64,000 nucleotides of DNA. It comes from Bacteroidota bacterium. GTDB taxonomy: Bacteria > Bacteroidota > Bacteroidia > Chitinophagales > Chitinophagaceae. Below, in pieces: positions 2,288 through 47,715 of the stretch (positions are counted from its first letter, which is position 1; every line of letters begins with the position of its first letter). The notes under the pieces were generated by a model that saw only the letters and a list, made by a program, of their open reading frames with translations, did not search any database and was not told the origin of the DNA. Location: the NCBI GenBank assembly GCA_016868815.1, contig VGFQ01000005.1, forward strand, positions 62,001-126,000. Direction: 5' to 3'. Both the position numbers and the translations under genes were made by a program.

Positions 2288-2321
2288 GCGCCCTCGGGGT
2301 GAAGAGACAAGACCGAATTTC

Positions 2322-2735
2322 TTACTTCTTATTCGCAGCCGACTGCTTGGCAGCGGCCTTGGCTAGGGCTTTGGCTGGGGCAGGTGCCGGGACTTCTACC
2401 CTCTTAGAGACCTTAGCAGGCTTCTTAGGTTTTTCTGAATTGGCTACTTCGTCTACTTCCACGACGCAGTTCTCCACACCCAGTCCGAAGACGGGGTTGT
2501 ATGCGGAAGCATTGGTATCATTCACCCAGCGGCCACCGTCGAGCAGGTAACGGTATTGGTAGGATTTGCCGGCCTCCAGTTCGACGGTCGTCTTCATGGA
2601 GCCGTCTTTGTACTTGCGGAGGGAGAAGCCGTGCTCCTTGTCCCAGTTGTTGAATTCTCCGAGGAGAAGACCTTGCGAGGCGCCAGCGACGATGTCGGCC
2701 GGGAGTATAAAGGTTACTTTCTTGGTGGTGAGCAT
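2322..2735 (-). CDS. Stand-alone AMPK/CBM48-type glycogen-binding domain protein
   Basis: A 137-residue protein with one immunoglobulin-like early-set domain (residues about 4-95). The motif GEFNNWDKE and the run YQYRYLLDGGRWVNDT match CBM48/AMPK-beta glycogen-binding modules, where the Trp residues stack on alpha-glucan. No catalytic domain is attached and there is no signal peptide, so it is probably cytosolic. The last 40 residues form a low-complexity tail rich in Ala, Lys and Pro (PAPAPAKALAKAAAKQ), which could be a flexible linker or a nucleic-acid-interacting tail. It may target glycogen or regulate a glucan enzyme; this is inference. The gene has a long GC-rich upstream region with hairpin potential (see 2761-2900). 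Confidence 0.8.
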   Translation of the reverse strand: MLTTKKVTFILPADIVAGASQGLLLGEFNNWDKEHGFSLRKYKDGSMKTTVELEAGKSYQYRYLLDGGRWVNDTNASAYNPVFGLGVENCVVEVDEVANSEKPKKPAKVSKRVEVPAPAPAKALAKAAAKQSAANKK

Positions 2736-2760
2736 AAATGATTTCTTGTGATGTGAAACA

Positions 2761-2900
2761 GTGGTGTCCCGCTTTTAATTCCTCCGCGGGAAGCAGGTAA
2801 CCCCGTTTGACCGGGGCGCACCCTGACTATCTCTGCTCCTTGCTATGACGTCCAAGCCTGGGGAATGGGCCCATCTCTTAGGTCAGGCGGGCGGGGTAGA
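2761..2900. other. GC-rich structured intergenic segment, candidate leader or ncRNA
   Basis: Between the glycogen-binding gene and the rhamnosidase gene the DNA holds several complementary pairs. TCCCGC near 2766 pairs with GCGGGA near 2786; CCCCG near 2801 pairs with CGGGG near 2812; ACCCCG (about 2800) can alternatively pair with CGGGGT (about 2892); CCTGAC (2822) pairs with GTCAGG (2882). Mutually exclusive pairings of this kind are typical of regulatory leaders or 6S-like RNAs. It lies 5' of the minus-strand gene ending at 2735. I do not recognise a known riboswitch. The orientation of any transcript is undetermined. Confidence 0.3.
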
Positions 2901-3003
2901 TAAACAAAACCCGTAGTACGGCTCATTTTTATTAAATAAGGCATATATGCTTTAAACTGATCGCCAAGAGATCATCCTCTTTCCTTCACCTCAAGAGGCG
3001 GCT

Positions 3004-5358
3004 TCAGAGCGAGTATGTCATGGTTCCCGAACAATGGATCACCTGATTCTTCCATCGCAGGGTTCCCTGGAGTCCTTTCGGGAGGGAAATTTCTCCTTCC
3101 AGTCCGTCCTTGCCCTTTCGTTTCAGGTGTACGCGAATCTCGCCGAGGGGGTGGGGCATGGAGCCCTTCACTTCGGTGAGTTCGCCGAGGGCAGGTTCGA
3201 TGGCCACGGCGGAGAAGCCGGGGGCGGCGGGTCGGATGCCGCAGAGGGTAGCGAGGAAGTCGTAGTTGGGGGAGGCGCTCCAGGCGTGGCAGTCGGACCG
3301 GGTGGGGTCGGGGTTTTCGGCGAAGGTGGTGAGTCCGTTGTCGATCATCCCGCGCCAGGGGGTGAGCTGGCTATAGTAGAGGTCGGCCATGCCGGCCTGC
3401 CGGAGGGCGCGGGTGAGATAAAAGCGATAGTAGAAGGTGGCTTGGGAGAGGGAGGTGTCGGAAAGGATGTGCTGCAGGACGATCTTTCTGTCGGCCATGG
3501 GGATGGCGTCGGTGAGGACGGCCATGATGGAGGCGTGCTGGCTAAAAGTCTTTTGGAGCGGCGTATTGGCCATCACCATGCGGGTAGTATGGTAGCAGTG
3601 TTTGCGGGTACCGGCGACCAGTCTGACGCGGAGCGACTGGCAGCGTGCGGCTTCGGTGGGGTTGCCATAGTGTTGGAAGAGTTGTTCGGCTTGTCGGAGG
3701 GTATAGGCCAGTTGAAGGGATAGGACGGAGGAGTGGCCATCGGTGGCGCCGTCGGGGGTGCCATTCCGAAACGCCTGGTCCCAGTCGACGAAGTTCCACC
3801 ATTCCATGGGTCCGAGCATATCCTTGCTGTCGTCGACATGGTGTTCGTACCAGTCGATGACCTGGCTGACGGCGGGGAGGAGGGGTTTGAGGAAGGCATC
3901 GTCGGTGCGGTGCATCCAGTAGTCGTGGATCATGGATATCCAGTAAAGGGAGAAGGGTGGGATGACCTGGAGGCGGTTGCTGGGGTAGCGTCCCTGGGTG
4001 AGGCCTTCGGCGATGCGGGACCGGTGGAAGTCGAGGATGGCCTTGCGCATGAGTCGGTCGTCGCCGGCCACATAGAGGGATATGAGGGATTGGATGCGGG
4101 TGTCGCCCTCGTATTGGAGTTGTTCGTAGTAGGGGCAGTCGTAGTAGGTTTCGCCTGCGCAGAGGAGGGCGGTGCGCCATCCGATGTCCCATATTTCGCG
4201 GAGCGAGCTGTCGTTGGAAGCGAAGGTTGCTTTTTGCGGAAAGGGGTATCCGGTGGCATTTGCGGAGAGGTCGTTTAGGGTGAGGGGTTGATCAGCCGTT
4301 TGGATATCGAGTTGGAGGTATCGGTAGGTACGCAGCCAGAGGGGTTGGAAGCTTCGGTCGGATCCGCCATCGGGGAGGAAATGGTCGTAATTACCCAGGA
4401 TCTCTTTCCCAGCTATCTCATTTCGGTTGCCCTTCTGACGTTCCTTGTCGAACAGTGCTTCGGCGTAGGTGAGGGTGATATTGGAGCCTTTCCCGCCGCT
4501 GACGCGGAGGGTGGGATAGGCGACGGTGAGGTGTCCGTTGTCGAGCAGGATGCTGGAATGGGTATTTGGGGGGATAGAGAACGGCTGTTTGCCAAGGAGG
4601 AAGGCGTCGGTGGCTTGGCTGCCGGTGCTGCGTCGTACGGAGGCGAGGCGTTCGGGATCCATGCGCATGAGGGGGATATTGCGCGGGGTGAGGGTCCAGA
4701 GGTTGTCGGTCCCGTAGCCGAAGGTGACGGCATTTCCGACTGCGATGGCGGGCTTCCATCCGCCATCATCGTAGCCGGGTTGTTCCCAACCCCAGGGGTG
4801 GCGACTGGCGTCGACTCGGTCGCCCGGGCCTACAACCATGTAAGAGCGGAGGCGTTGGCCGTTGTCGATGGAGCAGGGGCTGTAGGATGTATCGTGGAGG
4901 GTCTTCCATGACTTGTCGGTGTTGGTGGCCTCTTCCGCGGGGCTGTCGCCCTGAAGGAGGAAGGCTGTCTGGTTGGAGATCTGTGCCACGGGCGCGAGGG
5001 TGCCCATGTTCCAGACGGTGGCGGCGAGCGTGTTTTGGCCGGGCTGGAGCCAAGGGGCGATGTCGATGGTTTCGAAGTACCAGTGGGCCAGGTCGCCGCG
5101 CGCTGGACCCCGGCAGACTTCATGGCCGTTGACGAAGAGGCGATAGCGATTGTCGGCGGAGACATGGATGCGAAAACGGTTGGGTTTGGCTGAGAGGGTG
5201 ATGGACTTGCGGAGATGGATAACGGCGTAGTCGCGTTGTGGGATGCCGGGTGAGGTGATCCAGGAGGCCTTCCAGGTGCTGCGCGGATAGGTCGGTTCAT
5301 TGGGCTGTGCCGCGAGGGAGGAGTAGAAAAGCAGGAGTAGGCAGGCGAGGCGCATCAT
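3004..5358 (-). CDS. Alpha-L-rhamnosidase-like glycoside hydrolase (GH78)
   Basis: A 784-residue exported protein with signal peptide MMRLACLLLLFYSSLAAQ. Residues about 30-190 are beta-sandwich domains (RYRLFVNGHEVCRGPARGD is the conserved N-terminal bacterial rhamnosidase motif). An (alpha/alpha)6 barrel follows; CPYYEQLQYEGDTRIQS is typical of GH78 enzymes and lies near the general-acid region, with MEWWNFVDWDQAF further on. A C-terminal beta domain (APGFSAVAIEPALGEL) completes the fold. GH78 enzymes remove terminal alpha-L-rhamnose from flavonoid glycosides, saponins or rhamnogalacturonan; the actual substrate is unknown. Without a SusCD pair beside it, it is not part of a classical polysaccharide utilisation locus. 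Confidence 0.9.
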   Translation of the reverse strand: MMRLACLLLLFYSSLAAQPNEPTYPRSTWKASWITSPGIPQRDYAVIHLRKSITLSAKPNRFRIHVSADNRYRLFVNGHEVCRGPARGDLAHWYFETIDIAPWLQPGQNTLAATVWNMGTLAPVAQISNQTAFLLQGDSPAEEATNTDKSWKTLHDTSYSPCSIDNGQRLRSYMVVGPGDRVDASRHPWGWEQPGYDDGGWKPAIAVGNAVTFGYGTDNLWTLTPRNIPLMRMDPERLASVRRSTGSQATDAFLLGKQPFSIPPNTHSSILLDNGHLTVAYPTLRVSGGKGSNITLTYAEALFDKERQKGNRNEIAGKEILGNYDHFLPDGGSDRSFQPLWLRTYRYLQLDIQTADQPLTLNDLSANATGYPFPQKATFASNDSSLREIWDIGWRTALLCAGETYYDCPYYEQLQYEGDTRIQSLISLYVAGDDRLMRKAILDFHRSRIAEGLTQGRYPSNRLQVIPPFSLYWISMIHDYWMHRTDDAFLKPLLPAVSQVIDWYEHHVDDSKDMLGPMEWWNFVDWDQAFRNGTPDGATDGHSSVLSLQLAYTLRQAEQLFQHYGNPTEAARCQSLRVRLVAGTRKHCYHTTRMVMANTPLQKTFSQHASIMAVLTDAIPMADRKIVLQHILSDTSLSQATFYYRFYLTRALRQAGMADLYYSQLTPWRGMIDNGLTTFAENPDPTRSDCHAWSASPNYDFLATLCGIRPAAPGFSAVAIEPALGELTEVKGSMPHPLGEIRVHLKRKGKDGLEGEISLPKGLQGTLRWKNQVIHCSGTMTYSL

Positions 5359-5438
5359 GGGGTGTTTGAGGGAAGTTAGGAAGGATTTTTCGGGATCTTC
5401 GTTTCAGGGAAGCATGTACATTGGGCATAAATCAAAAA

Positions 5439-6497
5439 ATGGCGTCTTATAGATCCTTTGCCTTCGAGTTGGCATGTGTGAGTTTCCTATTTTCATCCTG
5501 TATGCTTGACAATCGCCAGTCCCATACTGAGCGGGTGGACGACATCATGAAAGAGTATGCCGACACCAGCGCTCCCGGCGCCTCGGTATTGGTGATGGTG
5601 GACGACAGCGTCGTCTTTGCCAAGGGGTACGGACTGGCCGACATAGAAGGACGGGAGCCGGTGACAACGGCCACCAACTTCCGGTTGGCCTCCGTCACGA
5701 AGCAGTTCACGGCGATGGGCATCCTGATGCTGATGGAGGCGGGCCGACTGAGACTGGACGATTCCCTGGAGCATTATTTTCCCGACTTCCCGACCTATGC
5801 ACACGGCATCCGCATCCGACACCTGTTGACGCATACGTCAGGGCTGGTGGATTATGAGGATCTCATCCCCGACACGTGGCAGCGGCAGGTGCTGGATCAG
5901 GACTGTCTCGACCTGATGCATCACACCGACTCGTTGTACTTCCCGCCGGGCAGTGCGTATCGATACAGCAACACTGGCTATGCCCTGCTGGCTTTGATCA
6001 CGCAGCAACTGAGCGGGAAAAGTTTCCCCGTCTTCCTGCAGGACAGCATCTTTTCTCCCCTGGGCATGGAGACGACCCTGGCCAGGGTGGATGAAGGACC
6101 GTCTGTGCAACATAGGGCTTTTGGTCATTCTCGGGCAGCGGTCGGCTGGGCGAAGACCGACCAGAGTCAGACCAGCGCCGTCTTAGGTGATGGGGGCATT
6201 TACTCGAATCCGACAGAGTTAGCGACCTGGGTGCGTGCGTTATGGCAGCACCGGCTGATCGGAAAGTCCTGGCAGGACAGTGCTTGGACGAAGGTAAGTT
6301 TGAATGATGGGACGTTGGTTGACTATGGCTTCGGCTGGCATCTCGACGGCGGGTATCCGCATCATGATGGCAGCACGAAAGGGTTTCGCAACCATGTGCT
6401 CGTCTTCCCTGAGAAGCGGATGTTCGTGGCGGTGCTCACCAATCGCGACGAGGGGAGGCCGCGGGAGCTGGCAGAGAGGATTGTGAAATTGTATTGA
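5439..6497 (+). CDS. Serine hydrolase, class C beta-lactamase/PBP fold, lipoprotein
   Basis: A penicillin-binding-protein-like serine hydrolase of the beta-lactamase family. The catalytic motifs are visible: SVTK (SxxK, nucleophile Ser), YSN in YRYSNTGY, and HDG in the place of KTG near the C-terminus. Starting at the ATG at 5439 the N-terminus gives a lipoprotein signal with a plausible lipobox LFSSC. An in-frame TTG 18 bases upstream is less likely. Family members hydrolyse esters, D-amino-acid peptides or beta-lactams; antibiotic resistance should not be assumed. The last 38 codons recur as a degenerate copy at 7690-7912. Confidence 0.88.
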   Translation: MASYRSFAFELACVSFLFSSCMLDNRQSHTERVDDIMKEYADTSAPGASVLVMVDDSVVFAKGYGLADIEGREPVTTATNFRLASVTKQFTAMGILMLMEAGRLRLDDSLEHYFPDFPTYAHGIRIRHLLTHTSGLVDYEDLIPDTWQRQVLDQDCLDLMHHTDSLYFPPGSAYRYSNTGYALLALITQQLSGKSFPVFLQDSIFSPLGMETTLARVDEGPSVQHRAFGHSRAAVGWAKTDQSQTSAVLGDGGIYSNPTELATWVRALWQHRLIGKSWQDSAWTKVSLNDGTLVDYGFGWHLDGGYPHHDGSTKGFRNHVLVFPEKRMFVAVLTNRDEGRPRELAERIVKLY

Positions 6498-6619
6498 GGA
6501 CCTGTAGATCGATGTGGCTCGATGGTAAAACAATGTCGGGTCATCCTCCTTAACTTTAGAAATCTGATCGCCCCCATTTCAAATTGAAATGATCAAGTAG
6601 AAAGACCATAGGGTTATCT

Positions 6620-7571
6620 TTATTTCCATGCCTCTATCCGCGGAATACGTACCATCGGTACGTTGAATATAAGACTGGCAGCCTTTGCAAAGCCTGAGTC
6701 CCAATTATAAACACTATAAGAATAAATTATGAGTGCTTTCTGCATGGAAAAGAATTCGGTTATTGTGTCGAAGAGGGAATCTGTATCTGTTTCGATACCA
6801 AAATGCATTGGCTTAATGGGGGGATGTGAAAATTATTTTTTTCTTGGCGTATACACGGAAAGATGGAGAGTCGCTAAGTAATAGCAAGTGGTTGTTTCCA
6901 AAGTATTCCTTCAAATAATCATAGAGTGTAGCACAGTCTTCATCTTTGGGACTGCTTGGATTTCCAAGGAGTTGTTCGTAGCCCAGTCTAATATGCAGCA
7001 CATTGTAATCGAATTTTGGCAACTTTTTCGTAATCTTTTACATCCATTGAGGTTTCAGTTGAAAGAATCTCCTCATGAATTCCATTTCCATCCTTTTTCA
7101 GGGATATTGAATTTCGGAAGGTGACTTTAGATCCATTGGTCAAAAAGGACAAAACATTATCTTTTTTCATTCTTGCACAATAAATCGGACTGCACTATGA
7201 TTGTCGGTAAAGACCTTGAAGTCAATCTTGTATTTTCTATCGTAAACCAGCGCTGAGTAGGGGTGAATTTCTTGAACAAGGAACTCTGAGATAGGATGGT
7301 GTTGCGTATCGACGATGTATCTGTATTCGTATTTTCTTGATATACGGTACAACAATAGCGCACCTCTGAGATAATCCCCTAACCCCCAAAAATGATCGGC
7401 AGCAGCGTTCCTTGGCTTTTGCACCCATGTAAGTATGATTGCTTGATTGCAATACAGCCTAATTTTTGATTTAAGAAGCCACCACCCTTTTTCAATTATG
7501 ATCGAACTGCTTGGGAATACCATTGGGTATAGATTGACTGCATAATGATTGGTGAAAAATATGTCATACCC
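6620..7571 (-). pseudogene. Broken AT-rich gene, possible glycosyltransferase-like protein
   Basis: Reading leftwards, four open segments in changing frames form one coherent protein: 7571-7167 (contains FWGLGDYLRGALLLYRISRK), 7170-6988, 7022-6813 (contains NVLHIRLGYEQLLG) and 6808-6620 (contains VYNWDSGFAKAASLIFNVP). The frame changes fall near 7170-7190, near 7010 in a run of five A, and near 6818 in a run of six C. Joined, they give about 310 residues ending at a stop at 6620. The GLGDxxRG motif and the late HIRLG motif recall uncharacterised sugar-transfer or fucosyltransferase-like proteins; I cannot name the family. The base composition is much more AT-rich than the flanking genes, suggesting transfer. 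Alternatives to decay are sequencing errors in homopolymers or phase variation. Confidence 0.5.
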
Positions 7572-7689
7572 TTAACTATAGCAATTCGTCTGAGATGATC
7601 GATATTTCGCCTTTTCTTCCATCACGAGCGGGTATAGAACCTGAAACCACTTCGCAAGAAATTGAAGGTATCACCGAATATCTTTAGAG

Positions 7690-7912
7690 ACTTGACACAT
7701 TCCTTGACTTCGAAGGCTACCATCGATGTGAGAAGAATGACGGCTTTGGCTGGTACCTCCATGGCTTGCATCCGCAATATGACAGCATGTTGAAGGAGTT
7801 TCGCAATCATGTGCTCTTCTTCCCTGACAAGCGAATATTCGTGGCAGTGCTCACCCATCGCGAGGAGGGGAGGCCCCGGGATCTGGTGGAGAGGACCGTT
7901 AAATACTTCTGA
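7690..7912 (+). pseudogene. 3' remnant of a duplicated serine hydrolase gene
   Basis: This stretch encodes GFGWYLHGLHPQ..., then FRNHVLFFPDKRIFVAVL, ending at TGA. It matches the C-terminus of the intact serine hydrolase at 5439-6497. Over the final 38 codons I count 19 base differences in 114, so the two are clearly duplicates. The reading frame is closed by a TAG just upstream at about 7687, and no SxxK or YxN motif precedes it, so only the tail survives. The HDG motif of the intact copy has become QYD. The missing 5' part is replaced by the AT-rich broken gene, consistent with insertion into, or deletion of, a tandem second copy. Confidence 0.7.
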
Positions 7913-8054
7913 GACGAAGATGAACGAATCACTAGAATCATTCGGGGGTGCTGTCGTGGGGGACATGCGAAATACAGTTGGTCTCGAAAGGGGGGATGGA
8001 TGGCCCCAGGTCGGCGATATGCCTAGGGCTGGTTGAGAAGTGGCCGGTCTTTTG
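7913..8054. other. Short non-coding spacer after the hydrolase remnant
   Basis: I see no gene with recognisable coding character and no clear terminator hairpin here. Together with 6498-6619 and 7572-7689 it makes the region between the intact serine hydrolase and the dehydrogenase at 8055 almost wholly non-functional. Confidence 0.5.
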
Positions 8055-9155
8055 TCATGCATACTCAATGTCTACCTTTCCTCCGATGCGCGCAGCTTTG
8101 TAGATAGCTTCGATGATTAAGAGGTCTTTGAGTCCTTCGCGGCCGTCGACGGGTACGATTGGCTGTTTGCCGTCTAGCAAGATGGCGGCCATCTCATCCA
8201 TCTGGATAGTCTGGTGGGTGATGTGGGGGAAGTCCAGCAGCCCTTTGTGGGTGCGGCCCATGATGGGACCGTAACCGGTGGAGGGCTGGAGTTCGGCGAA
8301 GCCATTGGTGCCGTCGAGGAAGAAGCGGTCGAGGTTGTTGAGGCTGTAGGTGGACAGACAGCTGGCGGTGGCACCGGAGGGGAATCCGAACTGGAAGGTG
8401 ATGGTTTCGTCGACGCCTTCCTTGAACTTGACGGGGTCGGTCTTGGTCTCCTGGGCGGTCACCCAGACGGGGTCTTCGCCGACCATGTAGCGGGCACCAT
8501 TGACGGCATAGATGCCGATGTCCATCATGGAGCCGCCGCCGGCGAGTTCGCGGTTGAGCCTCCATTGGGCGGGGTTGCCGATGCGGAAGCCGGAGAGGCC
8601 GTTGAAGTAGAGGACCTTGCCGAAGTCGCCCGCCTTCCGCATGCGGATGACTTCGAGGGTTTTGGCTTCGAAGTGCATGCGGTAGCCGACGAGCAATTTC
8701 ACCCCTGCCTTCTCGCAGGCTTCCACCATCATTCTGCCTTCTTTCGCGTGGAGGGCCATCGGCTTCTCGCAGATGACATGCTTACCGGCCTTTGCCACAC
8801 GGAGGGCATGCGGTAGGTGCAGGGCATTGGGAGTGATGATGTAGACGGCGTCGATGTCGGGGTTGTCACGGATGGCGTCGTACTGCTCGTACGAATAGCA
8901 ATTCTTCTCCGGCACTTGGAAACGTGCGGACCAGTCCTTGAGTTTCTGCGGCGTGCCGCTGACCAGGCCAGAGACGCGTGCCCGCGAACAGCCTTTCATG
9001 GCTTCGGCGACGCGGTTGGCATAGCCGCCTAGGCCCAGCAGGGCGACTTTCAAGACGCCTCCTTCCGTAGTTGTCGACCATCCTGCTTTTGAGAGAAGAG
9101 GCATGGCCGCGAGAGGCGCTGAGAGGGTCTGCAGAAAACTGCGCCTGGAGGTCAT
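8055..9155 (-). CDS. Gfo/Idh/MocA family oxidoreductase, twin-arginine signal
   Basis: An NAD(P)-dependent sugar oxidoreductase-like protein of 366 residues. MTSRRSFLQTLSAPLAA is a twin-arginine signal, so the enzyme is probably exported with its cofactor bound. The Rossmann motif is VALLGLGGYANRVAEAM. The family motif CEKPMALHAKEG holds the conserved EKP lysine. A C-terminal GFO_IDH_MocA beta-sheet domain follows, with GGGSMMDIGIYAVNGARY holding the usual substrate-binding Asp and Tyr residues. Substrate is unknown; glucose-fructose oxidoreductase and glycoside 3-dehydrogenases are the nearest precedents. The gene lies 29 bases downstream of the M24 peptidase gene on the same strand and may be cotranscribed with it. 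Confidence 0.9.
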   Translation of the reverse strand: MTSRRSFLQTLSAPLAAMPLLSKAGWSTTTEGGVLKVALLGLGGYANRVAEAMKGCSRARVSGLVSGTPQKLKDWSARFQVPEKNCYSYEQYDAIRDNPDIDAVYIITPNALHLPHALRVAKAGKHVICEKPMALHAKEGRMMVEACEKAGVKLLVGYRMHFEAKTLEVIRMRKAGDFGKVLYFNGLSGFRIGNPAQWRLNRELAGGGSMMDIGIYAVNGARYMVGEDPVWVTAQETKTDPVKFKEGVDETITFQFGFPSGATASCLSTYSLNNLDRFFLDGTNGFAELQPSTGYGPIMGRTHKGLLDFPHITHQTIQMDEMAAILLDGKQPIVPVDGREGLKDLLIIEAIYKAARIGGKVDIEYA

Positions 9156-9184
9156 GAGAGGGGCTTTGAGGTGAACGTATGGAT

Positions 9185-10447
9185 TCAGTCGAAGGGTTTG
9201 TCGATCGCGGAGCTTTGTTTGGAGAAGAAATGTGGGCCGTTTTCTCCGATGTACAGGCAGTCTTCGAGGCGGATGCCGAACGCTCCGGGGATGGCGATCG
9301 TGGGTTCGTCGCTAAAGCACATGCCGGGTGCGATGGGTGTCTGGTTACCGCGGACAAAGTTGGTCCATTCATGTCCTTCTAGGCCGATTCCGTGGCCGGT
9401 GCGGTGGGGGAGTCCCGGCAGGGCGTAATTCTTTCCCAAGCCGGCGTTTTCGATGACGGCGCGGGCGGCGGCGTCGACCGACTCGCAGGTGGCGCCGATG
9501 CGAACGGCGGCAAAGGCGGCGTCCTGTGCGCGTTTTTCAAGGTTCCATATCTCTGTCTGTCGGGCGTTGGCCTTGCCGACGACGATGGTACGGGTGATAT
9601 CGGATGCGTAGCCTTCGACGCTGGTGCCACCGTCGACCAGCAGCACGTCGCCTTCGTGGATGACCTGCGGCCTTATACTGCCGTGGGGGATGGCCGAGTC
9701 CTTGCCCACCAGTACCAGGGCTCCTCCGCTATATCCCAGCTTGCGGAAGGCGGCGGAGAGGTTAGCGCTGAATTCCGACTGCGACATGCCGTCGCGAATG
9801 GTGGCGAAAGTGGCCTTGTAAGCCTCGATGGTGACATCGCTGGAATACTGCATAAGGGCGATCTCTGTGGGGCTCTTGTGCATGCGCATGCCGGCGGTGA
9901 CGGGCGTGGCGTCTACGATCTCGAAGCCGGGCGCCTCGCGACGTACCCCGTCGGCGATGAAGAAGCGGACGCGCTCCTCCATCCCGATACGCCGATGCTT
10001 TATACCGCGCGCCCGGACAATGTCGACGATGAGTTTGTAGGGACTTTCATGCTCCTCCCAGCAGCGGATCTCATCGCCGAAGGCGGGGTTGATGAGTTCG
10101 CGGGCCCTGTCTTCCTCAAACTTGGGACAGACATACGCAATGGCGCCCATGGCAGGGATGATGAGTCCGAAGGTCCGTTCGCTCTGTCCCCAGCGCATGC
10201 CTGTAAAATAGAAGCTGGAGGCTGTGCCTTCCATGAAGATGGCGTCCATGCCTTGTTTCGCCATGAGTTCCTGTGCCCCAGCGATGCGACGCTTGCGCTC
10301 TTCCGGGGTGATGGGCACCACAGGTTTCGCAAGGGGCTTGAGTTTTTCGATGGAAGAGGGGATGTCGTATTCGTCCCGATGTTTGGCGGACAGCATTCCC
10401 CCGCTCAGTGCGGCGAGACCTAGGAATTTTCTTCTATGTAGGGCCAT
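9185..10447 (-). CDS. Xaa-Pro peptidase family M24 protein, exported
   Basis: A 420-residue pita-bread-fold metallopeptidase. MALHRRKFLGLAALSG is a twin-arginine signal. An N-terminal creatinase/prolidase domain (residues about 50-190) is followed by the catalytic domain. The five metal ligands can be seen: Asp in LVDGGTS, Asp in SDITRT, His in PHRTGHGIG, Glu in SDEPTIAI and Glu in IRLEDCLYIG. The enzyme should cleave an N-terminal residue preceding proline, or a related amide, in the periplasm. It precedes the Gfo/Idh/MocA gene on the same strand. Creatinase-like activity cannot be excluded. Confidence 0.9.
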   Translation of the reverse strand: MALHRRKFLGLAALSGGMLSAKHRDEYDIPSSIEKLKPLAKPVVPITPEERKRRIAGAQELMAKQGMDAIFMEGTASSFYFTGMRWGQSERTFGLIIPAMGAIAYVCPKFEEDRARELINPAFGDEIRCWEEHESPYKLIVDIVRARGIKHRRIGMEERVRFFIADGVRREAPGFEIVDATPVTAGMRMHKSPTEIALMQYSSDVTIEAYKATFATIRDGMSQSEFSANLSAAFRKLGYSGGALVLVGKDSAIPHGSIRPQVIHEGDVLLVDGGTSVEGYASDITRTIVVGKANARQTEIWNLEKRAQDAAFAAVRIGATCESVDAAARAVIENAGLGKNYALPGLPHRTGHGIGLEGHEWTNFVRGNQTPIAPGMCFSDEPTIAIPGAFGIRLEDCLYIGENGPHFFSKQSSAIDKPFD

Positions 10448-10526
10448 AAAATGTTTTATGCCCCAATGTACCGAAAATCATCCTACCATCATCGGCTCCA
10501 TCGGTAGTTGGTGAGCTCCTTCCTAC

Positions 10527-10534
10527 CTTTAAGG
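10527..10534 (+). promoter_or_regulatory. Candidate -7 box of the TonB receptor gene
   Basis: TACCTTTA matches the Bacteroidota -7 pattern TAnnTTTG except for the last base and ends 14 bases before the ATG at 10549. No convincing -33 TTG at the normal distance was seen. Confidence 0.3.
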
Positions 10535-10548
10535 CTGAAACAAGTCTG

Positions 10549-12450
10549 ATGCGCCTTTTGCTCTTGCTGTGTATGCCTTTTTCGTTGATTGGACAGGTGA
10601 AGGATCTCGACAGCATTGTCATCACGGCCTCTCTGCATGCAGAACATGAGAAAGAGACGGGCCGTAACATTCAGGTTGTGCGGGGCGAATGGCTTCGCGG
10701 GCTGCCGGCTATGAGCATTGATGAGCTGCTGCGGTACATCCCAGGTGTCGAGGTACAGCAGCGTGGCCCGCAGGGCTCACAGGCCGACATTTTGATCCGG
10801 GGAGGCACCTTTCAGCAGGTGTTACTGCTGATCGACGGGGTCCGGCTGAATGATCCGCTGACGGGCCATTTCAATGGCTATCTGCCCATCCACCCTTCGG
10901 AGATTGACCGCATTGAAGTCCTGAAGGGTACGGCAGCCTCCATCCATGGGTCGGATGCCATTGGCGGTGTGATCCATGTAATCACCAAGTCTGCTGCATT
11001 GACCGCCCAGGATACCCAACATCGTTTTTCAGCTGGAATGGAGGCCGGAGCGATGGGCCTGCGCAATGCAAATGGATGGTGGCGGATGCGGACAGAGCAC
11101 AGCTCCCTTTCAGTGGGCGCGACGAGCCAGAATGCAGAGGGGCCAGCATTGCGGGGTACGACGGGCTACTTCCACAACCATACCGTAGGCATCGCTTTTG
11201 CGAGGTCGTTGCACGCTGACTGGCGGTTGTCGCTGCGCTCGGCCATGGACCTGCGCGACTTCAACGCCCAGAATTATTACACAACCTTCCGCTCAGATAC
11301 AGCCCGTGAGCGCGTCCAGAGCACCTGGCAGCAACTGCATCTCCTAAAATCAGCGGGTGGCTACACACTGCATATGGACGTCGCCTACAAGGCCCTGGAG
11401 GATGTATATCGCTTTCGCCCGATGGTGACGCCCAACCAGAACCGAACGCGCATGATGGTGGCACAAGCCTATCTGCTGCTGCGGGCTGAAAAGCGCACCC
11501 GATTGACGACGGGGCTGCAGTACATCCGTCGCACGATCCGTTCCAACGACCGGGGCGATCATACCCTGGACCATGCGGCCGCCTACCTCATCGCTGCCCA
11601 CAGGCTCGGCGGCGGGCTGCATGTCAATGAGAGCCTTCGCATCGACTGGGATGCCAGCTACGGGTGGGTGTTGGTGCCGCAGGCCAACGCCTCATGGACG
11701 AGATCCAGGCTCACGCTGCGGGGTTCTGTGGGAAACGGCATCCGCGACGCTGACTTCACCGAGCGGTATAACAACTTCAAAAAACCCCTGGTGGCGAGTG
11801 GGAGCATTGGCAATCCCTGGCTGCGGACGGAGCGGTCGTGGAGTTATGAGGCCGGTGCAGACTATCGACTCCACCAGCGCTTGAAGGCGAGCATAGGGGC
11901 CTTTCGCAGGAGCCAGCAAGACCTGATCGACTGGGAACCTACTCCATATGCACAGATGCCCAGGCGTGAGAACCTAGTATCGGGTGCTACCTATGCACTG
12001 GCCACCAACCTCTCATCGGTACAGACCAGTGGACTCGAATTCGACCTTCAATACGACAGAAGTCTGGACGAGCAAGGGCGCAAGCGGCTTTTAGTGATGG
12101 CTGGCCTGCTCCTTCTCGACTCTAAGAGCGCCGACAAGACACCCTCCTTCTACATCTCTTCACATGCCCGGGCTCTGCTCAATGCGTCTGTGATCTATCG
12201 CGTCGGAGATGTTGACCTAAACGGCAGTATGGTCTGGAAGCGGCGCAATGCCCAGCAGGCGGCTGCTATCGGGGCCGACTTACCGCGTGAATACCTACTC
12301 TGCAATCTTCGTCTGCGCTATGCCGTCAGGCCGATGCGCGGGGCTGTATTTGTACAAGCATATAACCTTTTTGACCGCAATTTCAGCGACTTGCTGGGAG
12401 CACAAATGCCTGGCAGATGGCTCAGTATGGGGCTTCAGTTCGGGCAATGA
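10549..12450 (+). CDS. TonB-dependent outer membrane receptor
   Basis: A 633-residue outer membrane receptor. A short signal peptide (MRLLLLLCMPFSLIGQ) is followed at once by the TonB-box-like DSIVITA. The plug domain runs to about residue 150 (SIDELLRYIPGVEVQQRG, RGGTFQQVLLLIDGVRLND, IDRIEVLKGTAASIHGSDAIGGVIHVITK). A beta-barrel fills the rest and ends in an aromatic residue near LSMGLQFGQ. It lacks the carboxypeptidase-like extension typical of SusC proteins, and at this length it resembles BtuB/FecA-type receptors for cobalamin or iron chelates. No cobalamin riboswitch is visible upstream, so the ligand stays open. Confidence 0.88.
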   Translation: MRLLLLLCMPFSLIGQVKDLDSIVITASLHAEHEKETGRNIQVVRGEWLRGLPAMSIDELLRYIPGVEVQQRGPQGSQADILIRGGTFQQVLLLIDGVRLNDPLTGHFNGYLPIHPSEIDRIEVLKGTAASIHGSDAIGGVIHVITKSAALTAQDTQHRFSAGMEAGAMGLRNANGWWRMRTEHSSLSVGATSQNAEGPALRGTTGYFHNHTVGIAFARSLHADWRLSLRSAMDLRDFNAQNYYTTFRSDTARERVQSTWQQLHLLKSAGGYTLHMDVAYKALEDVYRFRPMVTPNQNRTRMMVAQAYLLLRAEKRTRLTTGLQYIRRTIRSNDRGDHTLDHAAAYLIAAHRLGGGLHVNESLRIDWDASYGWVLVPQANASWTRSRLTLRGSVGNGIRDADFTERYNNFKKPLVASGSIGNPWLRTERSWSYEAGADYRLHQRLKASIGAFRRSQQDLIDWEPTPYAQMPRRENLVSGATYALATNLSSVQTSGLEFDLQYDRSLDEQGRKRLLVMAGLLLLDSKSADKTPSFYISSHARALLNASVIYRVGDVDLNGSMVWKRRNAQQAAAIGADLPREYLLCNLRLRYAVRPMRGAVFVQAYNLFDRNFSDLLGAQMPGRWLSMGLQFGQ

Positions 12451-40726: not shown

Positions 40727-41755
40727 ATGCCTCGGATCCATGTCCATGATGCGTTGAACATCTTGTCGAAGCTGACGCTGAGAAGAGCCTTGAATGCGTT
40801 CAAAGTCTTCGCCAGCTACCAGTGGAGTCGATGGACCGGCCGGCCTGTGCAATGGGGGCTGCCCGTCTCGATCTCCTTTGAGCCGACCACTTCCTGCAAC
40901 CTCCGTTGCCCCGAGTGTCCCAGTGGCCTGCGCTCATTTACGCGTCCGACGGGGATGTTGGAAGTGGATTTCTTCCGACGAACCCTCGACGACATCCATC
41001 GCGAGCTCCTGTACCTGATCTTTTATTTCCAGGGCGAACCCTACCTGAACCCAGCTTTCACCGAGATGGTCCACTATGCGGCGGACAAGGGCATCTACAC
41101 CGCCACGTCCACAAACGGCCATTATCTCACGCCCGAGCATGCCCGCAAGACGGTGGAGAGCGGGCTGGACCGGCTGATCATTTCCATCGATGGCACGACG
41201 CAGGATGTCTATCAGCAGTACCGCGTCGGGGGGCAGCTCGACAAGGTACTGGCGGGCGCCCGTGAGATCGTCCGATGGAAGCGGACATTGCGCAGCCGCA
41301 AGCCATTTGTCGTTTTCCAGTTTCTGGTGGTGCGGCCGAATGAGCATCAGATCAGCGAAGTGCAGCGGCTGGGTAGAGAGATCGGCGTAGATGATGTCTG
41401 GCTGAAGACTGCACAAGTGTATGACTATGCAAACGATCCCAACGGACTGATCCCTACCTTGTCCGACTATTCCCGCTACAAGACGCAGGCCGACGGAAGC
41501 CGGGCACCGAAGAACCGCCTGGAAAACCATTGCTGGAAACTTTGGCATTCCAATGTCATCACCTGGGATGGCCTGGTCGTCCCCTGCTGCTTTGACAAAG
41601 ACGCCACCCACCGTCTCGGCAATCTACATCAAGAACGGTTTCGGGATGTCTGGATGAATAGAAATTACCACGACTTTCGCTCCAAGCTCATGCAAGGGCG
41701 AAAGGAAATTGATATATGCTCCAACTGCAGTGAAGGGACACGCGTCTGGAGTTGA
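40727..41755 (+). CDS. Radical SAM/SPASM domain protein
   Basis: A 342-residue radical SAM enzyme. The [4Fe-4S] motif is TTSCNLRCPECPSG (CxxxCxxC). A C-terminal SPASM domain carries further Cys: VVPCCFDKDATHRLGNL and DICSNCSEGT. The region between holds SIDGTTQDVYQQYRVGG, typical of the family. SPASM proteins modify peptides or proteins or mature enzymes, and some act on cell-surface sugars. No short precursor peptide gene was seen next to it. The neighbouring genes do not suggest a substrate. Confidence 0.9.
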   Translation: MPRIHVHDALNILSKLTLRRALNAFKVFASYQWSRWTGRPVQWGLPVSISFEPTTSCNLRCPECPSGLRSFTRPTGMLEVDFFRRTLDDIHRELLYLIFYFQGEPYLNPAFTEMVHYAADKGIYTATSTNGHYLTPEHARKTVESGLDRLIISIDGTTQDVYQQYRVGGQLDKVLAGAREIVRWKRTLRSRKPFVVFQFLVVRPNEHQISEVQRLGREIGVDDVWLKTAQVYDYANDPNGLIPTLSDYSRYKTQADGSRAPKNRLENHCWKLWHSNVITWDGLVVPCCFDKDATHRLGNLHQERFRDVWMNRNYHDFRSKLMQGRKEIDICSNCSEGTRVWS

Positions 41756-41911
41756 GGCAGTCAGGTGCTACATATATTTTTTGTGGCAGAGTCTTTGGTT
41801 GACCGTATCCGGTTACTTGACTCTTGAGTGTTATCTAGCCGATAGCTTTATCATCGTCCGGGAGCTCTATTTCTTGCTGCCGGAATGAAGTAAGCCCCAG
41901 GACTTTCTTCG

Positions 41912-43117
41912 TTAAATCTCTTTTGGGAATGGGTCTGCAAATCCTTGTATACTTTCAAACTGCTTTTGGTCGCTTTCTAGCAGTAAACATTTTTCGAGAT
42001 CGATAATCATTTTTTCTTTGTCTATGTCTTGACCTATAAAAACAAGCTCATTCATTCTGTCACCCCATTGTTTGTGCCATTTACTTTCAATGTATTCTCT
42101 ATTGTCAACGAATGATTGGTATTTAATCCGTTCATGAAATGGCATACTAATCCACCAAACGCCCGCTTTCTCAAGTCGTGATGAACCACCTGCTTGGCTA
42201 AAATTAATTGCGTCATTGGGTCTTGATGCTAACCAAAATAGCCCTTTAGCTCTGATTACTCCACTTGGATAATCTTCATTAAGATATTTCCAAAATCGTT
42301 CAGGATGAAATGGTTTTTGATTGCGAAATACAAATGATGAAATTCCATATTCTTCAGTTTCAGGTGTGTGAACTCCACCTTCTAATTCTTTTTGCCAACC
42401 TGCTGATGATTGAGCTATTTCAAAATCAAAGAGTTTTGTATTTAGAATTTCTTTGGGGTCAACTTTGCTAAAATCAGAAGTCAAGATTTTAGCACTTGGA
42501 TTTAATTTTTTAATGGAAGCTTTTAGAAGACCAATAGTTTTTTTATCTACTAAATCTGTCTTATTTAAGATTATCACATTGGCAAATTCTATTTGATCGG
42601 TCAGTAAATTTACAATTGTTCTGTTATCGCCTTCTATATCTGTTAACTTACGATCAACTAACAATTCATTTGTTCCAAAGTCTTTAAAGAAATTAAAACA
42701 ATCTACCACTGTAACCATTGTGTCTATATAGCTGAATTTTGAGAGGTCAATACTTTTTTCTTCGTCTATAAAACTAAATGTTTGAGCAACTGGTATAGGC
42801 TCACTAATGCCAGTACTTTCTATCAATAAATAATCAAACCTATTTTCATTGGCTAATTTTTCAACTTCAATCATTAAGTCTTCCCTAAGAGTGCAACAGA
42901 TACAGCCATTGCTCATTTCTACTAATTTTTCATCGGTTCGCGATAGAATATTTTGCTCATTTACCAATCTTGCATCAACATTTACTTCACTCATATCATT
43001 TACAATAACGGCGACTCGCAAACCTTCTTTATTATGCAAGACGTAATTAAGTAAGGTAGTTTTTCCTGCCCCAAGAAAGCCGCTTAAAACAGTTACAGGT
43101 AATCTTTTTGTTATCAT
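41912..43117 (-). CDS. COG0523 (CobW/ZNG-like) GTPase metallochaperone
   Basis: A 401-residue G3E GTPase. The Walker A motif is FLGAGKTTLLNYV (residues about 14-26). The metal-binding CxCC motif is at residues 72-75 (GCICCTLREDL), between switch regions, and ILNKTDLVD is the guanine-specificity motif. A CobW C-terminal domain follows (SSFVFRNQKPFHPERFWKYL). COG0523 proteins deliver zinc to client proteins in zinc starvation, or act on cobalt or nitrile hydratase iron. The threonyl-tRNA synthetase gene lies upstream on the same strand, 320 bases away. Zinc-starvation regulons in other bacteria pair COG0523 with thrS paralogues, so this is probably a zinc role. The DNA is far more AT-rich than its surroundings. 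Confidence 0.9.
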   Translation of the reverse strand: MITKRLPVTVLSGFLGAGKTTLLNYVLHNKEGLRVAVIVNDMSEVNVDARLVNEQNILSRTDEKLVEMSNGCICCTLREDLMIEVEKLANENRFDYLLIESTGISEPIPVAQTFSFIDEEKSIDLSKFSYIDTMVTVVDCFNFFKDFGTNELLVDRKLTDIEGDNRTIVNLLTDQIEFANVIILNKTDLVDKKTIGLLKASIKKLNPSAKILTSDFSKVDPKEILNTKLFDFEIAQSSAGWQKELEGGVHTPETEEYGISSFVFRNQKPFHPERFWKYLNEDYPSGVIRAKGLFWLASRPNDAINFSQAGGSSRLEKAGVWWISMPFHERIKYQSFVDNREYIESKWHKQWGDRMNELVFIGQDIDKEKMIIDLEKCLLLESDQKQFESIQGFADPFPKEI

Positions 43118-43437
43118 TTTTATAATTTACTTTTTTATATTATATGATTATACTCGTCTAATATTTTACTATCTTTTTACGATCACAAAAAAAAATGAAG
43201 AATGTGTCTATATATATAAAATTAAAAAGACTGCTTCACTTTACGATTTATCACTAAACGATAAATCAGATCTGTAAATATAAATGGTATGATGTTCAGC
43301 TATATTCTTAAAAATATTCGCTACCTGATATATTTCAGGAACATTACTCATATTGTAGGATACATATTTGGATTTATAAAAGTGTTATTAATGGCGTGTG
43401 AAGATACCAAGCCTAGATTCTATATTATTGATGACAC
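43118..43437. other. AT-rich spacer between thrS and the COG0523 gene
   Basis: No gene is visible. The stretch is very AT-rich and includes one notable inverted repeat at 43245-43267 and a TATATTTA box on the minus strand near 43296, so the COG0523 gene may have its own promoter. Long A and T runs are present. Confidence 0.55.
43245..43267. repeat. Inverted repeat GATTTATC-N7-GATAAATC
   Basis: The two 8-base arms (43245-43252 and 43260-43267) are perfect inverted copies with a 7-base spacer. It lies 128-150 bases before the COG0523 start codon. It could be a regulator site. In such AT-rich DNA an 8-bp inverted repeat can also arise by chance. Confidence 0.45.
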
Positions 43438-45234
43438 CTACAGTTTCAAATTTTGTATAAGCTCATTTGTGAATTCTTCAATAGTATAAATTTTATTTTT
43501 TATATCGTCTCTTTGCCTCACTGATACTGTTTGCGAGTTCATTTCCTCTTCACCAACAATGAGCATATAAGGTACTTTTTGCAACTGAGCATCACGAATT
43601 TTTTTACCCAACTTTTCGTTTCTATTATCCACCTCTATCTCTAAATCTAATTTATTATTTATTTGTTCCGCGACTTGTATGGCGTACTCTTCAAACTTTT
43701 CAGATACCGTTAATACAATTGCTTTAATAGGAGCTAACCAAACAGGGAATTTTCCTGCATTATTTTCAATCAGAAGCGCAATAAAACGCTCCATAGATCC
43801 AAATAGAGCTCGATGAATCATTACAGGGCGGTGCTTCTGGTTGTCGCTACCTGTGTATTGTAAATCAAAATTCTCCGGCATCATATAGTCAACTTGTATG
43901 GTGCCAATTTGCCATTTTCTGCCGATAGCATCACGTACTATAAAATCTAGTTTTGGTCCGTAAAAAGCTGCTTCACCTTCTTTTGTTGTGGTTTTCATAC
44001 CACGTTCCTCTGTGGCTTCCACTATTGCCTTTTCAGCCAATTCCCACATTTCATCTGTACCTAGATACTTGTATTTGTTCCCTGGATCTCTTAATGATAT
44101 TTGTGTTTGAAATTCACTAAAACCTAATTTACTATAAACTAGATTTACCAAATCAACGACTTTTAAAAACTCTTCCTTCAATTGATCAGGACGGCAAAAA
44201 ATATGAGCATCATCTTGAGTAAAGCCGCGCACTCTTGTTAAGCCGTGTAATTCACCGTGTTGCTCGTAGCGATAAACAGTCCCGAATTCTGCATATTTAA
44301 TCGGTAATTCTTTATAACTCTTAGCTTTTGAAGCATAGATTTTACAATGATGTGGACAATTCATTGGCTTGAGGAAAAACTCCTCATTTTCAGCAGGTGT
44401 TCTAATCGGTTGATAAGCATCTTGACCATATTTTGCGTAATGTCCTGAAGTTACATAGAGTTCTTTTTTTCCTATATGAGGGCTTGCTACGTGTTGGTAT
44501 CCAGCCTTTCGTTGAATATTTTTGAGGAAATTTATGAGGTTTTGGCGGAGCGCTTCACCTTTAGGAGCCCAAAGTGGTAAGCCCATACCTACCTCTTCAT
44601 CAAAATAAAACAAGTCTAATTCTTTGCCAATTTTTCTGTGGTCACGTTTTTTGGCTTCTTCAATGTTGCTTACATACTCATCAAGTAGAATCTTGTCTGG
44701 GAACGAAATACCATATACACGGGTAAGCATCTTATTTTTTTCGTTACCACGCCAATAGGCACCAGCTATATTGGTTATTTTAATTGCTTTTATTAAGGCA
44801 GTGTTAGGTATGTGCGGGCCTGCACATAAATCTACAAATTCTCCAGTCTCATAAAAAGTGATAGTACCGTCTGCTAAACCATCTAAAATTTCCAACTTAT
44901 ATTGATCTCCTTTTTTCTGGAAATAGTTTGCTGCATCCTTTTTACTAATTTCTACACGAATATTTTGTAACCCTTTTTTGGCAAGTTCAAGCATTTTCTG
45001 CTCTACTTTCATGAAATCTTTTTCTGAAAAATTATAATCGTTAAAATCAACATCATAATAGAACCCATTTTCAATAGCAGGTCCAGTTCCTAACTTAATG
45101 CCAGGATACAGATTTTCCAGGGCATAGGCTAATAAATGACTTGATGTATGCCAAAAGGTTGATTTGTAAATGTCGTTTTCCCAATCTGATATTTTTTCTG
45201 TGGAAATCACGGATGCGCTCAATTCTAATGGCAA
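43438..45234 (-). CDS. thrS: Threonyl-tRNA synthetase lacking the TGS domain
   Basis: A 598-residue class II synthetase, shorter than the usual 640 or so because the N-terminal TGS domain is missing. The editing domain is intact: HTSSH (His29, His33) and DLCAGPH (Cys137, His141). The catalytic core has zinc ligands Cys293 (KPMNCPHH), His344 (QDDAHIF) and His474 ([10 protein letters not shown]), so it still depends on zinc in appearance. The anticodon-binding domain ends the chain ([13 protein letters not shown] is the start region). The upstream frame closes at TAG nine codons before, and no ATG is available, so translation probably begins at TTG 45234 (or a nearby GTG). The AT-rich composition differs from the rest of the window. 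Together with the COG0523 gene it suggests a second, zinc-starvation copy; a primary thrS should exist elsewhere. Confidence 0.92.
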
Positions 45235-45263
45235 GTATTTAGTTTTAGATTCAAGAATCTATA

Positions 45264-45278
45264 TGCAACAATGTTGCA
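45264..45278. promoter_or_regulatory. Candidate operator of thrS, 15-bp palindrome
   Basis: TGCAACAATGTTGCA is a perfect inverted repeat (6-base arms, 3-base spacer) located 30-44 bases upstream of the thrS start. On the minus strand it touches a -7-like box, TTATTTTG at plus positions 45277-45284. A repressor bound here would cover the transcription start. A Fur-family regulator such as Zur is a reasonable candidate given the genes controlled; this is inference. Confidence 0.6.
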
Positions 45279-45724
45279 AAATAATGATTATCTCAGTACA
45301 CGCGACGAACTTTTTTTAATATTTCAAAAAAAATAAGGTAGAAGAGTGCACAACATGAAAATATACCCTGTCTTGGGAAATTTTACGGATGATGTTGTTA
45401 TGGAATGACACTTCAGTCAAATAATGTAAATATTTTTGGTTATATCTCAACGAATAGGAACGAAAACAAGCATATTGCACAACACCATTTTTTTTGTAGT
45501 CATGCCATACATATAAAAAATACTATTTACGAAATCGTTTATTAAATCAAAATTTATTTATAAATGATATTTAATACACGATCTAATTTCTATCAATATT
45601 TATCCTTGTATGGTGTCTTTTCTTTTGATAATATATATTTTATTTACAGACGTTATTTCCGCTGTTTGCAGTTCTTGGTCTATTGAGAAATTTCCCCGTC
45701 ATTATAATCTAAAATTGCTATTGC
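45279..45724. other. AT-rich non-coding stretch
   Basis: About 450 bases with high AT, many T and A runs, and stop codons in all frames. Apart from the promoter side of thrS I see no gene, RNA or repeat. It is part of the same compositional island as thrS. Confidence 0.6.
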
Positions 45725-46040
45725 TCAGATCATCTCTTTAAAATCACCATCCTTCCAACACAAGCTTACATTTTCAGCAATTTTATTATCTTCTGAATTG
45801 AGAATTGTAGAGGCAGCGAGAGCAGATTTTAACACTACTTTTTTGGGTTCAAAAAGGCGTTAGTATTCTTAACCCCCCGATATCATTTATCCATTCTGCT
45901 TCTGCACCATATTTTTTTGCTACTCTGGTTGTATGCACTAGGTAATATCCACTTTCTAGCACCCTACTGCTAATATATCCAATATGCCTTCTCTGCTTCA
46001 TGGGCCTCATCCTTGGCATATTTCTCCTCGCTTGTCTCAT
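45725..46040 (-). pseudogene. Frame-shifted C-terminal gene relic
   Basis: Read leftwards from 46040, one frame encodes HIGYISSRVLESGYYLVHTT and WINDIGGLRILTPF, then stops. Shifting frame in the run of five T near 45865 lets it continue as FEPKKVVLKSALAASTIL and CWKDGDFKEMI to a TGA at 45725. The combined product of about 105 residues looks like the C-terminus of one protein. I do not recognise the family. There is no start region, so this is probably debris at the island edge. The N-terminal part may have been lost when the AT-rich DNA was inserted or trimmed. Confidence 0.45.
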
Positions 46041-46125
46041 CCTGCTGGCGCGTATTTACACTTTTGCATTTGTAAACTATTCTTTCTGCGACTTTGGAGC
46101 TGAGTGATCTCATCACTGTTCCTCG

Positions 46126-46133
46126 TACTTTCG
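46126..46133 (+). promoter_or_regulatory. Candidate -7 box of the GHL10 gene, nearly leaderless
   Basis: TACTTTCG differs from TAnnTTTG at one informative base and ends 4 bases before the ATG at 46138. If used, the mRNA would start at or next to the start codon. Confidence 0.35.
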
Positions 46134-46137
46134 CGGT

Positions 46138-47715
46138 ATGAGACTCATCGTTCGAACCTGCTTCCCACAGGCCATCCTGTGGCTGTTGTTGACAACAAGC
46201 TATGGCATAACAGATCTCATGGGCCAGCCGACTTCCCCGCGCTATGAATTCCGGGGTGCATGGATAGCAACGGTGGACAACATCGACTGGCCTTCGAGGA
46301 AAGGTCTTCCTTCGGACTCACAGCGGGCTGAGTTCATCCGGCTCCTCGATATGCACCGTTCTAATGGCATGAATGCGGTGATCATGCAAGTGCGACCGGC
46401 AGCGGATGCTTTCTACCCCTCCCCGCTGGAACCCTGGAGCGAGTGGCTCACCGGTGTTCAGGGTAAGGCTCCCGAGCCATATTACGACCCGCTGGCATTC
46501 ATGGTAGAGGAGACGCATCGCAGGGGGATGGAGTTCCATGCCTGGCTGAATCCCTACCGGGCTGTCTTTAACAGGACCTATTCCTCCATCGCTGCCAACC
46601 ACATCACCCGCATGCGGCCGGAGTGGTTTCTCGACTATGGCGATAAGCGTTATTTTGACCCAGGCCATCCCGAGGCACAGGCCTTCGTGACAGAAGTGGT
46701 GGTGGACATCGTCCGGCGCTATCCGGTCGACGCCATTCACTTCGACGATTACTTCTATCCTTACCGCATTGCCGGAAAGAACTTTCCTGATACAGCTACC
46801 TACCGGCAGTTTTCACGGGGGATGGCCACAGACGACTGGCGGCGCAGCAATGTCGACTCCATTATCGTCCGACTGCGGCGGGCCATCCATCGGGAGAACC
46901 CCTACTGCCGCTTTGGGATCTCTCCCTTTGGCGTGTGGAGGAACCGCGATAAAGACCCGCGGGGGAGTGATACCCACGCCGGCCAGACCAACTACGACGA
47001 TCTCTATGCTGATATCCGGCTATGGCTGGAAAAAGATTGGATAGACTATGTCGTGCCGCAGCTCTATTGGGAGTTGGAACATAACAAGGTGCCCTTCGAG
47101 CCCTTGCTGAACTGGTGGAGCCATAACTCTTTTGGCAAACCCTGCTACATCGGACTGGGCTTTTATCGCGCCGGCAGCAACCTCGCCTGGCGCGACCACA
47201 CACAGCTCTCCCGACAGCTGGCGGCGATCCGCAGTCGGCCCAACATACAGGGCGCCGCCTATTTTAGCAGTAAGTCTTTTTTTAAGAATCCTTTGGGATG
47301 GAACGATACCCTCCGCCGCTACTATCAGTATCCCGCACTGGTTCCCCCGGCACACAGCCATGAAGGGACAGTTGCGCTGACACCTCGCATCCGCACCGAG
47401 GCGGGTCTCTTGGCGGAGAAGGTTCGTTTCCGCATCTTGGCGCCTGCCGAAGGCATGGATACGAAGATCCGGCAGATAGCCGTCTATGCGGTGTATGAGG
47501 AGCAGTCGACTTTCTCGCAGGCCCAACTCGTAGCCCTCCAGCCTTTCGGTGGAGATGTGGCTTTCGAGATCAACTGTCCGCCGACGGCCACATACTTACG
47601 CGTGCATGTCACCTATGTCGACCATGCCAACCGCGAAAGTCCGGTAGAGGGCCTGGGGGCCGCCACCTGCTCCTTTGTCCGAAGAGCCGGCAGTTGGGAA
47701 CCGATCCGTCCCTAG
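46138..47715 (+). CDS. GHL10-family glycoside hydrolase-like protein
   Basis: A 525-residue exported protein (signal to about [11 protein letters not shown]). [20 protein letters not shown] is the typical start of the GHL10 (DUF187, YngK-like) TIM barrel. [40 protein letters not shown] and [12 protein letters not shown] carry the conserved acids. A C-terminal fibronectin-like region follows ([12 protein letters not shown]). Family members act on amino-sugar glycans, probably bacterial exopolysaccharide or peptidoglycan-derived; substrate here unknown. Its stop codon overlaps the opposite gene's stop codon. Confidence 0.88.

Follow-up and report, generated by a model that had tools for sequence, protein, structure and literature searches.

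A thrS2–zigA pair in an imported AT-rich block of a Bacteroidota genome as a probable zinc-scarcity cassette

Known pairs of thrS and COG0523 genes

Second threonyl-tRNA synthetase (ThrRS) genes standing beside genes for COG0523 GTPases are already known in cyanobacteria and on plasmids. The present text concerns such a pair in another phylum, thrS2 and a zigA-like COG0523 gene, found in an AT-rich block of a Chitinophagaceae genome (assembly GCA_016868815.1; 2.85 Mb in 33 contigs, 92% complete). The stretch analysed, called the window, covers 64,000 nt (contig VGFQ01000005.1, positions 62,001 to 126,000), and coordinates refer to it unless another contig or locus is named. The block is probably a horizontally acquired, Zur-controlled thrS2–zigA cassette for zinc scarcity.

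In the sections of the literature that bear on such pairs, ThrRS paralogues with conserved zinc residues are counted among the Zur-linked enzymes (Haas et al. 2009; PMC2770081). Low zinc induces the Anabaena paralogue T2, whose gene is described as co-transcribed with a COG0523 gene; the authors tried and failed to demonstrate that the two proteins interact (Rubio et al. 2015; PMC4787780). According to a review, the Anabaena Zur regulon includes thrS2 and all4722 (PMC6103462), and in a 2024 paper genes for ThrRS and COG0523 proteins are reported close to zepA (PMC10957091). Zur regulons holding COG0523 genes and duplicate thrS genes were the background on which a first-pass annotation of the window had relied.

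Like Anabaena thrS2 (T2)–all4722, the locus combines a second ThrRS gene with an adjacent COG0523 gene (PMC4787780; PMC6103462, sections on the pair). The Anabaena pair is under Zur, and here a candidate Zur box accompanies an enzyme that keeps its zinc residues. Unlike the Anabaena pair, the present one belongs to another phylum and has a ZigA-like partner; moreover, the published description gives T2 a 20-aa insert close to its editing motif, and alignment with E. coli ThrRS shows no such insert in the island ThrRS. On the conjugative Dolichospermum plasmid pDol_DET69_01, thrS – COG0523 – folE shows the same pair in the same order on a mobile element, and the encoded ThrRS is likewise without a Pfam match to the TGS domain. 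Unlike here, folE and further GTPase genes are present and the TGCAAC-N3-GTTGCA box is absent from the stretch. On a conjugative plasmid of Phaeobacter inhibens (L319), the pair is reversed and extended by hisI (phosphoribosyl-AMP cyclohydrolase) and DUF1826, in the order COG0523 – thrS – hisI – DUF1826. Its ThrRS keeps the TGS domain, and its COG0523 protein agrees best with another model, under the cut-off. ExbB/ExbD/TonB genes lie nearby. By its gene content, this plasmid set looks like a mobile zinc-scarcity set.

The sections of these accounts that treat such pairs mention neither this phylum nor a ZigA-like partner nor the candidate box. The word stem ‘bacteroid’ does not occur in the main text of the broad Zur accounts PMC2770081 and PMC6103462. 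A published Zur box for Bacteroidota was found neither among the titles and abstracts listed, from which no absence from print is claimed, nor in the relevant sections of PMC3087516 and PMC10957091. A literature search for a ThrRS devoid of TGS returned none.

An AT-rich block inside a host gene

The G+C content (GC) of the window falls from ∼0.57 to 0.28–0.37 between ∼41.9 and ∼45.9 kb and is back up near 46.1 kb, so that the block has a GC of ∼0.33 against ∼0.57 around it. Outside the block, 116 overlapping one-kb segments have a mean GC of 0.567 (standard deviation 0.033) and a minimum of 0.39, at 6.5 kb. At third codon positions (GC3), the values are 0.29 for thrS2 and 0.24 for the COG0523 gene versus 0.67–0.75 for five flanking genes. 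The two genes are the only full genes in the block and both lie on the minus strand.

The edges of the block are marked by remnants of a single host gene, encoding an AI-2E transporter, in correct frame and order. The N-terminal remnant (41817..41882, plus strand, ∼residues 13–34) is weak alone: tblastn with the AI-2E protein of a relative gives E 0.33 over the whole window and 0.008 over the edge alone, and AI-2E proteins of four further relatives give similar matches. The C-terminal remnant (45913..46104, plus strand, ∼residues 278–344) is matched at E 2e-7 over the whole window, by the proteins of 7/7 relatives and by a profile (E 4.5e-8). Beyond these remnants lie, according to domain matches, a radical SAM/SPASM gene on the left (40727..41755, plus strand) and a GHL10 gene on the right (46138..47715, plus strand).

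The radical SAM gene is present in 32 of the 41 genomes of the genus, the own genome counted. Twenty-nine loci from other same-genus genomes were inspected over ∼1.5 kb per side, with GHL10 already visible in four; these four and four more were extended. In seven of the eight extended loci the AI-2E gene (identified by Pfam for one locus and by likeness for the remaining ones) is intact between both flanks, three of the seven having an extra small gene between them. The eighth shows neither the AI-2E gene nor GHL10 within the stretch examined. In the own genome the block occupies this place and the middle of the AI-2E gene is gone, which implies either replacement or insertion followed by loss. 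Because one AI-2E gene is split across the two edges here and intact in seven of eight extended loci, the comparison of loci indicates acquisition of the block by import into a host gene.

The block itself extends over 41884..45912, with approximate edges and no strand, as delimited by the GC drop, the GC3 values (0.24–0.29) and the AI-2E remnants just outside both edges. In the first-pass annotation the island had been drawn at 41756–46137. The abrupt AT-rich composition and the two full genes on one strand are confirmed by the GC profile and domain matches; the foreign part shrinks to ∼41.88–45.91 kb, the host-gene remnants lying outside it. The proposed transfer is itself backed by the split AI-2E gene, by the codon composition of both genes, which is foreign on GC3, and by the departure of the ThrRS tree from the genus clade (see below).

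An intact ThrRS without TGS and its ZigA-like partner

The thrS2 gene (43438..45234, minus strand, TTG start) encodes a ThrRS of 598 aa, identified by TIGR00418 (699 bits, curated cut-off 384), Pfam and alignments. When aligned with E. coli ThrRS (1QF6), the protein keeps the C of PMNCP, the H of LHGL and the H of IHRA, which are presumably the zinc ligands of ThrRS; the retention of all three, asserted in the first-pass annotation, is thus borne out. Editing residues are retained as well, in this alignment and in one of 139 rows. The gene is an intact thrS, with one addition to that annotation: the TGS domain is missing. Pfam finds no match to it, the usual N-terminal layout is lacking, and six conserved TGS columns, each filled in 132–137 of 138 relatives, are empty. 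Visual inspection of the translations upstream of thrS2 showed no TGS-like frame, no profile search having been run there. Loss of TGS separates the island enzyme from the other Bacteroidota ThrRSs compared; the Dolichospermum plasmid enzyme likewise gives no match to the domain. Of 173 columns common to ≥95% of the 138 relatives, the island ThrRS deviates at 14, six of them in TGS; other rows deviate at a median of 1 and a maximum of 9. In the motif DLCRGPH it has A at a position held by R or K in the 118 of 138 relatives where the motif was located. The enzyme is apparently functional, though evolving fast.

Among the matches listed, the closest relatives are ThrRSs of Bacteroidota (57–65% identity). 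Nothing exceeds 65% among the best 80 genome loci, and within the order no listed match exceeds 64%. Plasmid records listed reach at most 61% (2/710 in the 60–80% band), phage records at most 58% (32/32 under 60%), and a scan of viral contigs gave 57 loci at 36–43%. Same-genus ThrRSs form a separate clade with the island protein outside. A tree that groups it with 17 of them is worse by 252 log units (approximately unbiased test, p 9e-60; two trees compared, quick search). The donor cannot be named, because the branch is long (1.46) and its placement among non-genus sequences is unsure.

The partner gene (41912..43117, minus strand) encodes a COG0523 GTPase of 401 aa with cobW (PF02492) and CobW_C (PF07683) domains and a GCICC motif visible in the translation, which agrees with the earlier description of a GTPase with a metal motif beside thrS on the same strand. 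It matches the ZigA model NF038288 over its full length (1–390/390) with 547 bits, under the curated cut-off of 600, and is for this reason named ‘ZigA-like’; two other Bacteroidota members also score under the cut-off (552.7 and 562). The two genes are separated by an intergenic spacer of 320 bp (43118..43437, minus strand, GC 0.25), in which no terminator-like site is listed, so that read-through from thrS2 into zigA is possible.

A candidate Zur box upstream of thrS2

A perfect 7-1-7 palindrome, TGCAACATTGTTGCA (minus-strand reading), is located at 45264..45278, 29 bp upstream of the TTG start. Its pattern, TGCAACNNNGTTGCA, has no occurrence in 100 shuffles of the window. A second short palindrome, TAGATTCAAGAATCTA (45246..45261, no strand), lies between this box and the thrS2 start codon. 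The own genome contains two perfect sites, the other being on contig C8 (see below). With one mismatch there are two further sites, both inside open frames, and at the same tolerance a single site fits a reversed control pattern.

Boxes of this type are also found near zigA elsewhere in Bacteroidota. Of 48 other places, the 29 with the best scores were compared, and nine of these 29 loci have a box with at most one mismatch within 300 bp upstream of zigA. Sites of this quality number 14 in 8,015 positions upstream of zigA versus 13 in 111,120 positions of these loci outside that range; for perfect sites the numbers are 8 and 2. In 11 chosen genomes, nine of them zigA carriers, 22 perfect sites were found versus one for the reversed pattern. 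Six stand at zigA, six at a Fur-family gene or SCO1-FUR/MerC promoter and one at MerC/SCO1 with no FUR gene seen (Fur-family naming is by Pfam in two genomes and by alignment in three, that of MerC and SCO1 partly by eye). Fur-family repressors are typically self-regulated. Given the enrichment of TGCAAC-N3-GTTGCA-type boxes in front of zigA in other Bacteroidota and their presence at Fur-family promoters, the one upstream of thrS2 is probably a Zur box.

Other genes stand behind the same box. In four loci (L244, L250, L252 and L253) a MerC-domain gene is situated opposite a SCO1-FUR run or behind the FUR gene, with the box in the promoter; in Bacteroidota the MerC-domain protein may thus act as a Zur-controlled zinc transporter. 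In a further locus (L255:1548-1904) a perfect box lies 33 bp upstream of a gene for a histidine-rich, DUF2946-like protein (Pfam just under the cut-off), followed downstream by another gene in the same direction.

Proposed mechanism and the metal sensed

A zinc-bound Fur-family repressor (Zur) would occupy the palindrome at 45264–45278 and silence thrS2, and probably also zigA via read-through from thrS2. At low zinc the repressor would be released. An additional ThrRS, a zinc enzyme required for translation, would then be made together with the ZigA-type GTPase, which would pass scarce zinc to its clients, possibly including ThrRS2, as the first-pass annotation had suggested. Zur binding, induction on zinc loss, co-transcription and zinc hand-over are all predicted steps of this scheme. 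The role in zinc starvation, suggested in the first-pass annotation, gains by inference from the ZigA-like partner, the candidate Zur box and a Fur-family regulator encoded elsewhere in the genome (contig C4; PF01475 score 38.8, cut-off 23.1).

Several observations weigh against the proposal. The Fur-family protein of the genome has Zur (NF008646) as its best NCBIfam model, but at 35 bits versus a cut-off of 167. The two-mismatch box at the homologous MerC/SCO1-FUR promoter of the own genome (contig C4, ∼46.2–47.8 kb) speaks for the proposal but is weak by itself, since four other sites with exactly two mismatches occur in the 64-kb window. The zigA gene has no box of its own in the 320-bp gap. 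Twenty of the 29 zigA loci of other Bacteroidota are without a box (≤1 mismatch, 300 bp), one of them holding only 27 bp upstream, and no thrS was found in the stretches around these 29 genes (mostly 1.5 kb per side, six also wider). Nine of the 22 perfect sites, five of which were read, are at other places, and a perfect site is absent from 3/11 genomes, the two closest zigA carriers included. In four of the 11 genomes the box at zigA was known beforehand, and the six sites at zigA therefore do not count as independent of that earlier finding. The other perfect box of the own genome stands beside nickel/cobalt-type genes, and a second full thrS is missing from the assembly.

Some of these points feed the main rival, in which the Fur-family sensor responds to nickel, cobalt (or iron) and thrS2–zigA belongs to another metal response. 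On contig C8 the second perfect box precedes, by ∼45 bp, a gene for a NicO nickel/cobalt transporter. This gene is the first of a run that includes two COG0523 genes, and cobT and cobS belong to the same island; the Fur-family protein is far under the Zur cut-off. Against this stand the recurrence of the box at zigA of other Bacteroidota (9/29 loci) and the zinc dependence of ThrRS; PMC2770081 describes putative Zur sites in front of COG0523 genes as common. A sensor of another metal is thus unlikely, and Zur control of a zinc-scarcity pair is preferred.

The C8 stretch is itself a second AT-rich island (∼37.0–47.5 kb; L232 ∼1000–11450; GC ∼0.32, GC3 0.21–0.28 for five genes), with genes for CobT, CobS, a histidine phosphatase, a bestrophin, two COG0523 proteins, a WD40 protein, a methyltransferase, a 2Fe-2S protein and NicO, and it holds the only other perfect TGCAAC-N3-GTTGCA box of the genome. 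For this reason, use of the C8 box as a marker of a native regulon was dropped.

It is tempting to go further, tentatively and with somewhat more doubt than confidence, and to propose that TGCAAC-N3-GTTGCA is the Zur box across much of Bacteroidota, that AT-rich foreign blocks arrive pre-wired to it, and that thrS2–zigA is one plug-in zinc-scarcity unit in which ZigA helps metallate the TGS-less ThrRS. If Zur control of the pair holds, the mobile thrS2–COG0523 zinc kit would extend to Bacteroidota, a concrete box would be at hand for mapping zinc regulons across the phylum, and a natural TGS-less ThrRS would offer a test system for client metallation by a COG0523 protein. Such a kit looks like a means to keep protein synthesis running when zinc is scarce.

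The native thrS locus

A whole-genome search found no second full thrS in the assembly, a result that the first-pass annotation had named as one that would refute its reading of a paralogue. This was dropped as a refutation, since the genes that accompany thrS in relatives are unmatched too. In 17/17 same-genus thrS loci fetched, infC (recognised by motif) directly follows thrS, and in nine extended same-genus loci an RNase R gene (Pfam-named in one) lies a few genes beyond. In the own genome infC has no match, in a search that was positive in 10/14 control genomes, and RNase R has none, in a search without positive control. The gene rplT is found at contig ends, with an rpmI-like frame adjoining; in the genus loci rplT is not beside thrS. 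With both thrS neighbours of relatives unmatched, the simplest explanation is that the assembly has a gap there; the native thrS would lie in this gap and the island gene would be its paralogue.

Alternatively, the island gene may have replaced the native one and now be the housekeeping enzyme. It is the only full thrS of the assembly, and across the order 368/396 genomes are matched at E ≤ 1e-100, with one match per genome listed (at most three candidates scored per genome). This account is distinctly improbable given the unmatched infC and RNase R genes, the lack of TGS in the island enzyme and its long branch. Gaps at thrS do occur, 4/24 same-genus assemblies having no thrS above the cut-off (completeness 91, 98, 60 and 89%).

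Other explanations and remaining features of the window

A spare ThrRS could also protect against inhibitors of the enzyme, such as borrelidin or obafluorin, since a second diverged copy is one known route to self-resistance. A resistance gene is very improbable here in view of the pairing with a zinc GTPase and a box common to zigA genes, in a block with only two full genes. An origin of the block in misassembly or contamination is scarcely credible: the composition shift is abrupt and the genome a draft in 33 contigs, but both edges cross remnants of one host gene in correct order (the left one weak), the contig is 160 kb long, and the genome has a second block of similar composition.

Scans of the whole window gave no tRNA and no Rfam match at the gathering threshold. 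A smaller AT-rich dip is located at 6500–8000 (GC 0.39–0.43), with only short frames inside, and is flanked by a beta-lactamase-like serine hydrolase gene and an oxidoreductase-like gene, both named by eye.

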